Below are positions 59,189-61,435 of a stretch of DNA of 64,000 bases, piece by piece. This stretch comes from Haloarcula hispanica ATCC 33960 (GTDB lineage: Archaea; Halobacteriota; Halobacteria; Halobacteriales; Haloarculaceae): contig NC_015948.1 of assembly GCF_000223905.1 (NCBI RefSeq), positions 1,364,001-1,428,000 of the forward strand, given 5' to 3'. A program made the position numbers and the translations under genes. Below the pieces are notes generated by a model. It saw only the letters and a list, made by a program, of their open reading frames with translations, ran no database searches and was not told the origin of the DNA. The first letter of the stretch is position 1; the number at the start of each line of letters is the position of its first letter.

Positions 59189-61435
59189 ATGACTGATATC
59201 GCTGGGACGATGCGTATTCTCCACGTCGACGACGAGCCGGGATTCGCCGACATGACGGCGACGTTTCTCGAACGCGAGGACGACCGGCTGGACGTGCAGG
59301 CCGCGACGAGCGTCGCGGCGGGACTGGAAATCCTGACCGACACCGACATCGACTGCGTCGTCTCCGACTACGACATGCCTGACCGGAACGGGATCCAGTT
59401 CCTCGAAACCGTTCGCGAGGAGTACGGTTCGCTCCCCTTCATTCTCTACACCGGCAAAGGCTCGGAGGAGATCGCCAGCGATGCGATTTCGGCCGGTGTC
59501 ACCGACTATCTACAGAAACAAAGCGGCACCGACCAGTACGCGGTGCTCGCGAACAGAATCACGAACGCTGTGGAGTCACAGCGCGTCAAACGCGAGCGCA
59601 ACCGCCAACTCGACGCCATCGAGACCGCACAGGAAGGAATCAGCATTCTCGACGAAGACGGGACGTTCATTTTCGTCAACGAAGCCTACGCCGACCTCTA
59701 CGGCTACGAACCGGACGAGATGGTCGGTGAGCACTGGGAGCTACTGTATCAGGCGGAGGACATCCCGCGAATCTACGACGAGATCGTCCCGACTGTCGAT
59801 GAAACTGGGTACTGGAGTGGGACGACGACCGGGCTCCGTGCCGACGGGAGCACGTTCACGGAAGACCACGTACTCGCGCGGACCGACCGCGGTGAACTGG
59901 TCTGTACTGTCCGGGATATCTCCGACCAGCGAGACGGCGAAGAGGAACTTTCCCGGATCAAACGTGCCATGGACGAGGCACCGGTCGGGATCACGATTAC
60001 CAGCCCCGAACAAGATGATAACCCGATCACCTACGCCAACAGGCAGTTTCTGGAACTGACCGGCTACACGGAGTCGGAGGTGTATGGCCGTAACTGCCGG
60101 TTCCTGCAGGGTGAGGAGACCGAGTCAGAGCCAGTCGACGCGATGCGAGCGGCCATCGACGCGGACGAACCCGTGTCGGTCGAACTCCGGAACTACCGGA
60201 AGGACGGAACGATGTTCTGGAATCAGGTGACTATCGCCCCAGTCCGCGACGACGACGGAACAGTCGTCAACTACGTCGGGTTCCAGCAGGACATTACTGA
60301 ACGGAAGGAACACGAACACCGCCTCAGAGCTCTCAGTGAGTCTGTACAGAACCTCCTTCAGGCAGACACACGCGAGGAAGTCGCCGAGATCGGCGTCGAC
60401 ACGGCGTGCACTGTGCTCGGGCTCGAAGCGAACACGATCCACCTCTACGACGAGGGCGACCGGACCCTCGAACCGGTCGCCGCGTCCGACGCGATATACG
60501 ACCTGCTAGACGATTTGCCGACCTTCACGCCCGGAGGCAGCATCGCGTGGCGTGTCTACGAGTCCGGCGACGCGCTCGCCGTCGATGACGTCCATGCCGA
60601 CCCCGACATCTACAACCCGGACACGCCGATCAAGAGCGAGCTATATCTCCCGCTCGGCGAGCACGGAATCCTGCTGGCCGGTTCGGAGACGGCCGCGGCG
60701 TTCGACCAGCGGGACGTCGTCCTCGGTGAGATCCTGGCCGGACACGTCACCAGCGCGCTCAAGCAGGTCGAAGGGACCGAACAGTTGCGCGACCACCAGC
60801 AGGAACTCGAACAGCACAACGACCGGCTCGAAGCGTTTACCAGCGTCGTCTCCCACGACCTGCGGAATCCGCTGACCGTCGCCGAGGGACGACTGGAACT
60901 AGCACGCGAGGAGTGCGAGAGCGAGCATCTGGCCGCTGTCGAGCGGGCACACGAGCGGATGGACACGCTGATAACGGACCTGCTCACGCTGGCACAGGAC
61001 GGGGAGACGGTGACCGACCGCGAACCGGTCGCGCTCGCATCGCTCGTGGAAGATTGCTGGACGAACGTCGAGACAGCCGATGCCACGCTCGTCACCGACA
61101 TCGACCGGACCGTCCTGGCAAACGAGAGCCGTCTGAAACAGCTATTCGAGAACCTCGTTCGGAACGCGGTCGAGCACGCCGGGGCGGACGTAACCGTGAC
61201 GGTCGGGGCGGTAGACGACGGGTTCTACGTCGCGGATGACGGCCCCGGCATCCCCGAAGCCGACCGCGACACCGTGTTCGAAGTCGGCTACTCGACGAGC
61301 ACGGAGGGGACCGGGTTCGGGCTCAGTATCGCCCGGAAGGTCGCGGAGGCCCACGGCTGGGAAATCAACGTTCGCGATAGCGCGGACGGTGGTGCACGCT
61401 TCGAGGTTACCGGCGTCTCGTTTGACGAGGTGTAG
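59189..61435 (+). CDS. hybrid sensor histidine kinase: receiver-PAS-LOV-GAF-HisKA-HATPase
   Basis: A 748-residue soluble kinase. The receiver (8-125) is intact: acidic pair in LHVDDEP, phosphoacceptor Asp60 (VVSDYDMPD). PAS covers about 140-250. The second PAS (about 255-373) is a LOV domain with GRNCRFLQG; Cys303, Asn335, Asn345 and Gln366 fall at exactly the offsets (+32, +42, +63) of the flavin-contacting residues of plant LOV2. GAF covers about 385-525. HisKA has His556 (VVSHDLRNPL). HATPase is intact with Asn655 and Asn659, DDGPGIP and GTGFGLSIA. It is a likely blue-light or redox-sensing kinase. A second start at residue 8 is possible. Confidence 0.88.
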   Translation: MTDIAGTMRILHVDDEPGFADMTATFLEREDDRLDVQAATSVAAGLEILTDTDIDCVVSDYDMPDRNGIQFLETVREEYGSLPFILYTGKGSEEIASDAISAGVTDYLQKQSGTDQYAVLANRITNAVESQRVKRERNRQLDAIETAQEGISILDEDGTFIFVNEAYADLYGYEPDEMVGEHWELLYQAEDIPRIYDEIVPTVDETGYWSGTTTGLRADGSTFTEDHVLARTDRGELVCTVRDISDQRDGEEELSRIKRAMDEAPVGITITSPEQDDNPITYANRQFLELTGYTESEVYGRNCRFLQGEETESEPVDAMRAAIDADEPVSVELRNYRKDGTMFWNQVTIAPVRDDDGTVVNYVGFQQDITERKEHEHRLRALSESVQNLLQADTREEVAEIGVDTACTVLGLEANTIHLYDEGDRTLEPVAASDAIYDLLDDLPTFTPGGSIAWRVYESGDALAVDDVHADPDIYNPDTPIKSELYLPLGEHGILLAGSETAAAFDQRDVVLGEILAGHVTSALKQVEGTEQLRDHQQELEQHNDRLEAFTSVVSHDLRNPLTVAEGRLELAREECESEHLAAVERAHERMDTLITDLLTLAQDGETVTDREPVALASLVEDCWTNVETADATLVTDIDRTVLANESRLKQLFENLVRNAVEHAGADVTVTVGAVDDGFYVADDGPGIPEADRDTVFEVGYSTSTEGTGFGLSIARKVAEAHGWEINVRDSADGGARFEVTGVSFDEV

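Follow-up and report, generated by a model that had tools for sequence, protein, structure and literature searches.

A gene in a 64,000-nucleotide stretch of the Haloarcula hispanica ATCC 33960 genome (contig NC_015948.1, positions 1,364,001 to 1,428,000; hereafter the window) encodes a histidine kinase with two PAS-type domains, the second of which carries a motif typical of LOV photoreceptors. This raises the question of whether the second PAS domain is a LOV domain and whether the kinase could respond to blue light. The gene occupies positions 59189–61435 on the forward strand, and all features described below lie on that strand.

Domain order and conservation of the kinase

The gene is one uninterrupted open reading frame with an ATG start and a translation of 748 amino acids, and Pfam matches and the domain order of its orthologs agree with the frame. 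Pfam gives the domain order REC-PAS-LOV-GAF-HisKA-HATPase, with REC at residues 10–115 (59216–59533; PF00072, E 2.2e-21), two PAS stretches, GAF at residues 393–524 (60365–60760; PF13185, E 2.4e-16), HisKA, the DHp domain, at residues 547–603 (60827–60997; PF00512, E 1.6e-12), and HATPase_c at residues 645–741 (61121–61411; PF02518, E 1.1e-22). The first PAS domain, at about residues 139–250 (59603–59938), matches Pfam PAS families, has no LOV motif, and consists of PAS-like strands and helices in the full-length structural model. An earlier note on this DNA had described a six-domain hybrid kinase in which the LOV domain lies between a receiver with an intact phosphoacceptor and a GAF/HisKA/HATPase module, and both Pfam and the orthologs bear this out. 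In the receiver, the phosphoacceptor Asp60 (codon 59366–59368) is present together with the acidic pair Asp14/Asp15, Thr88, and Lys110, and all of these residues are invariant across the orthologs. On the output side, the phosphoacceptor His556 (codon 60854–60856) is nearly invariant in an alignment (A2), and the HATPase keeps intact, conserved N and G boxes, with N655, N659, D683, G685, G687, G709, and G711 near-invariant in the same alignment. We also considered a Bat-type regulator, and this was ruled out, as Pfam shows HisKA and HATPase and no BAT or HTH_10 domain.

An ortholog is present in 12 of 15 sampled Haloarcula genomes, with identities of 82–91% in six named Haloarcula species. The search for homologues with the same domain order that the earlier note had proposed returned the same six-domain order in all Haloarcula orthologs found and in L045, a protein from another haloarchaeal family that is 63% identical. 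Gene order around the kinase gene is conserved in six Haloarcula genomes. Upstream are genes that we take, from names read from the sequence, to encode menaquinone-pathway-like enzymes and an acyl-CoA ligase, and downstream are small conserved open reading frames. In the section of the window that was inspected, no response regulator, light-linked gene, or other obvious partner was found beside the kinase gene. We classify the LOV kinase as a Haloarcula orphan kinase.

Identity of the second PAS domain

The LOV domain spans residues 257–380 (59957–60328), as delimited by profiles, PDB sequence matches, the structural model, and structure matches. The motif GRNCRFLQG, which the earlier note had placed in the second PAS domain, is present there at 60086–60112 by both DNA motif search and residue check. 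Counting from the putative adduct cysteine, Cys303 (TGC, 60095–60097), Asn335 at +32 (60191–60193), Asn345 at +42 (60221–60223), and Gln366 at +63 (60284–60286) are all exactly where they had been claimed to be, and they correspond to N482, N492, and Q513 of AsLOV2. Alignment with the bacterial LOV protein YtvA adds Asn302, Arg304, Leu306, Gln307, and Arg320 as further flavin contacts. The domain thus has the GxNCRxLQ motif with the adduct cysteine, the Asn/Asn/Gln spacing, and the phosphate-binding residues Arg304 and Arg320 of a LOV domain. A search for the DNA form of the motif gives a single match in the window and none in 100 shuffled sequences.

Profile and sequence searches gave the same assignment. 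The top NCBIfam match over the LOV stretch is the YtvA-family blue-light photoreceptor (E 1.1e-54), and a blue-light-activated histidine kinase family also matches there (E 9.6e-47); both matches stay under the whole-protein cut-offs because one domain alone matches. The best PDB sequence match of the LOV region is YtvA (E 1.7e-37), and each of the 60 matches listed is to a LOV protein or a fusion with LOV. The alignment with Bacillus subtilis YtvA (2pr5, with the engineered kinase YF1, 4gcz) has 50% identity over 119 positions, is gap-free through Asn345, and includes a shared helical C-terminal linker. Asn302, Cys303, Arg304, Leu306, Gln307, Arg320, Asn335, Asn345, and Gln366 are identical in the two proteins, and the H. 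hispanica LOV domain differs from YtvA by a two-residue insertion before Tyr362.

An AlphaFold model of the LOV domain, built from a 70-sequence alignment, has a mean pLDDT of 95. When this model was compared with known structures by VIA-align, 50 of 50 among the matches listed were LOV domains (Z 19–22.5), including Brucella LOV histidine kinases and the chimera 4gcz, and the rmsd between the LOV-core model and solved LOV structures was often below 1 Å, reaching down to 0.6–0.9 Å. The earlier note had named a predicted Cys303 far from the pocket as a refuting result; the model does not bear this out, as Cys303 aligns with the adduct cysteine of YtvA. Cys303 is also invariant in 13 of 13 aligned non-query orthologs, L045 included. 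Profile, sequence, structural-model, and ortholog evidence therefore agree, and they support the conclusion that the second PAS domain is of the LOV type and has all the residues needed for the adduct.

Two positions near the flavin differ from AsLOV2. In our own alignment, Tyr362 occupies the position of AsLOV2 Phe509, where phenylalanine is usual in plant LOV domains and in most bacterial ones. Among 24 other haloarchaeal LOV domains sampled, this position is Tyr in 15 and Trp in 2, and Tyr or Trp at the flavin edge has been described as an archaeal trait, found in most of the archaeal LOV domains from Lake Diamante (PMC12202551). Thr269 occupies the position of AsLOV2 Val416. Threonine is the commonest residue there in the haloarchaeal sample (16/24) and rare in the bacterial LOV domains sampled, and the orthologs have 9 Thr (query included), 3 Ile, and 2 Val. 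The V416T substitution in AsLOV2 makes dark recovery 21-fold faster (PMC3867380), and by analogy Thr269 might favor fast photocycling. The prediction is weak for three reasons: haloarchaeal LOV domains often have Thr here, the orthologs vary among Thr, Ile, and Val, and the haloarchaeal LOV domain ALovD-1, whose residue at this position is unchecked, has a slow photocycle. We regard Thr269 and Tyr362 as hints about the photocycle and not as findings. Natural variants of the pocket occur among the orthologs, with Asn345 replaced by Ser in L030 and Tyr362 by His in L021, so some drift in the pocket is tolerated.

Proposed mechanism and alternative readings

The gene product is very probably a soluble histidine kinase that responds to blue light and belongs to the haloarchaeal LOV-kinase family, as judged from its sequence and the structural models. 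From what is known of the LOV family we infer flavin binding, adduct formation, and helix-mediated switching, and every step beyond the presence of the residues themselves is likewise an inference. The LOV domain would bind flavin, with FMN expected, and blue light would drive reversible formation of a Cys303–flavin C4a adduct. A flip of Gln366 would then move the C-terminal J-alpha helix (residues 370–391), and the signal would run via the LOV-GAF helix and the GAF domain to the GAF-DHp helix (residues 507–575), shifting the kinase/phosphatase balance at His556. Phosphate would pass to a response regulator whose gene is not linked to the kinase gene, and Asp60 in the kinase's own receiver could be a second phosphate acceptor or an input, providing feedback or cross-input.

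In the full-length model, helices 115–146, 245–262, 370–391, and 507–575 bridge successive domains; this model (pLDDT 86.6, pTM 0.44) is confident within domains and unreliable in relative domain placement. Helical coiled-coil signaling in LOV kinases has been reviewed (PMC6798134), and the modeled bridging helices fit the helical transmission described for photoreceptor kinases. The seven-residue linker rule of YF1 for the sign of the light response was left aside because a GAF domain sits between LOV and DHp here. A more elaborate scheme, in which the kinase integrates phosphorylation of its own receiver, blue light, and a small GAF-bound ligand, with a photocycle changed by Thr269 and Tyr362 and a light reading gated by phosphorylation, seems to us improbable.

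Of the alternatives to a blue-light-responsive kinase, the one that survives best is that the LOV domain is photoactive yet functionally uncoupled, with the REC, PAS, or GAF inputs driving the kinase. In favor of this reading, the genome also encodes a sibling kinase (L002, described below) with a REC-PAS-GAF-HisKA-HATPase plan and no LOV, so the plan exists without light input; against it, the LOV domain is about as well conserved as the rest of the protein (mean ortholog identity 0.861, versus 0.860–0.888 for the other domains), and the LOV and GAF domains are joined by helices in the model, and we consider uncoupling unlikely. We think it very unlikely that the LOV domain binds flavin and, instead of sensing light, chiefly senses redox state or oxygen through flavin reduction. 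Tyr362 in place of the usual Phe near the flavin would suit such a sensor, since tyrosine is able to quench the excited state of flavin. Signaling through flavin photoreduction is also described for LOV proteins that lack the cysteine (PMC4682037); however, Cys303 is kept throughout the orthologs, and a haloarchaeal LOV domain photocycles in vitro (PMC12202551). Finally, the reading that this is an ordinary PAS domain with a chance likeness to LOV is refuted at the sequence level and has next to no probability, for although other PAS domains of the source genome share the fold family, these paralogs score E 1.6e-14 or worse with the LOV domain as query, versus 1.1e-52 for a second intact LOV domain, and chance residue matches are ruled out by these scores together with the PDB matches, the empty shuffles, and the uniformly LOV structure matches above.

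Known LOV kinases and related haloarchaeal genes

A kinase of this composition has close precedents. Losi et al. (2014) listed 167 LOV proteins from archaea, some of which are LOV kinases with only RR, GAF, and PAS modules besides (PMC4844311), and the H. hispanica kinase has the composition described there for this class, with LOV, only RR, GAF, and PAS modules besides, and a kinase output. It also shares with those kinases the histidine kinase output, the canonical cysteine, and an origin in Halobacteria, and we found no qualitative difference from them as they are described in that paper, whose main text makes no mention of Haloarcula. Valle et al. (2025) showed that the haloarchaeal LOV domain ALovD-1, part of a multi-PAS kinase, binds flavin and undergoes a photocycle at up to 3 M salt (PMC12202551). 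ALovD-1 and the other Lake Diamante LOV domains share with the H. hispanica domain its place as the second PAS of a multi-PAS histidine kinase, the GXNCRxLQ motif, and an acidic composition; Phe305 within the H. hispanica motif is Tyr in ALovD-1, and the ALovD-1 kinase is described with three PAS domains, whereas the H. hispanica kinase has REC and GAF besides its two PAS-type domains. Other known systems differ in architecture. The output of YtvA is a STAS domain rather than a kinase, and REC, PAS, and GAF are all missing from the engineered kinase YF1. The Brucella abortus LOV-HK (6ph3, 6ph4; structural Z about 20–21) is likewise a soluble histidine kinase with a LOV sensor, in the order LOV-PAS-HK, without the REC, upstream PAS, and GAF of the H. 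hispanica kinase.

The DNA form of the motif G-x-N-C-R-x-L-Q-G was found in 250 of 292 haloarchaeal genomes and 69 of 77 genera, a count of DNA motifs in which some matches are untranslated and for which the reversed-pattern control was near-empty. The novelty implied in the earlier note is therefore not upheld, as LOV kinases that contain REC, PAS, and GAF have already been described from haloarchaea (PMC4844311, PMC12202551) and the motif is this widespread; the kinase joins a known kind of haloarchaeal LOV kinase and is not novel in kind.

The source genome has two intact LOV kinases and three rhodopsin genes. The second LOV kinase (C3:782218–782583; L003, L010) has the motif GKNCRMLQG and a third PAS domain where GAF would be. 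Its receiver keeps the central Asp and reads VLYVGTDSDD versus ILHVDDEP in the 59189–61435 kinase, and its acidic pair looks altered. The sibling kinase L002 (C3:2704052–2705968), of the plan given above and without LOV, is 57% identical to the LOV kinase over residues 355–744 and, by this comparison, can be seen as its natural light-less counterpart. At C2:29444–29769 (L012, L016) there is a LOV-like fragment, GENLRLLQG, with Leu for the adduct Cys and spread over two reading frames, which is probably a decayed LOV gene.

In other genomes, we observed Bat-type (BAT/HTH_10) regulators with a LOV motif, namely L131 (1674–4454, G024:C3), L132 (1779–4468, G063:C16), and L133 (2013–4544, G126:C1). 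Each has a co-directional rhodopsin open reading frame directly downstream, and the LOV core of L131 is complete, with Cys, Asn, Asn, and Gln. The Bat protein of H. salinarum is described as lacking the LOV adduct cysteine (PMC4844311). From their sequences and positions, L131, L132, and L133 may switch rhodopsin genes in response to blue light.

In the haloarchaea sampled, more genomes have LOV motifs than have rhodopsins (250 versus 202 of 292). To our knowledge, little is known about the output of haloarchaeal LOV proteins. Gene deletion is feasible in H. hispanica (PMC3936714). A host in which the gene can be deleted, together with a natural control in the form of the sibling L002 that has no LOV, makes this kinase a practical test case for the output of archaeal LOV proteins in blue light. 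The value of the H. hispanica LOV kinase lies in its tractability, in a field with little knowledge of outputs.
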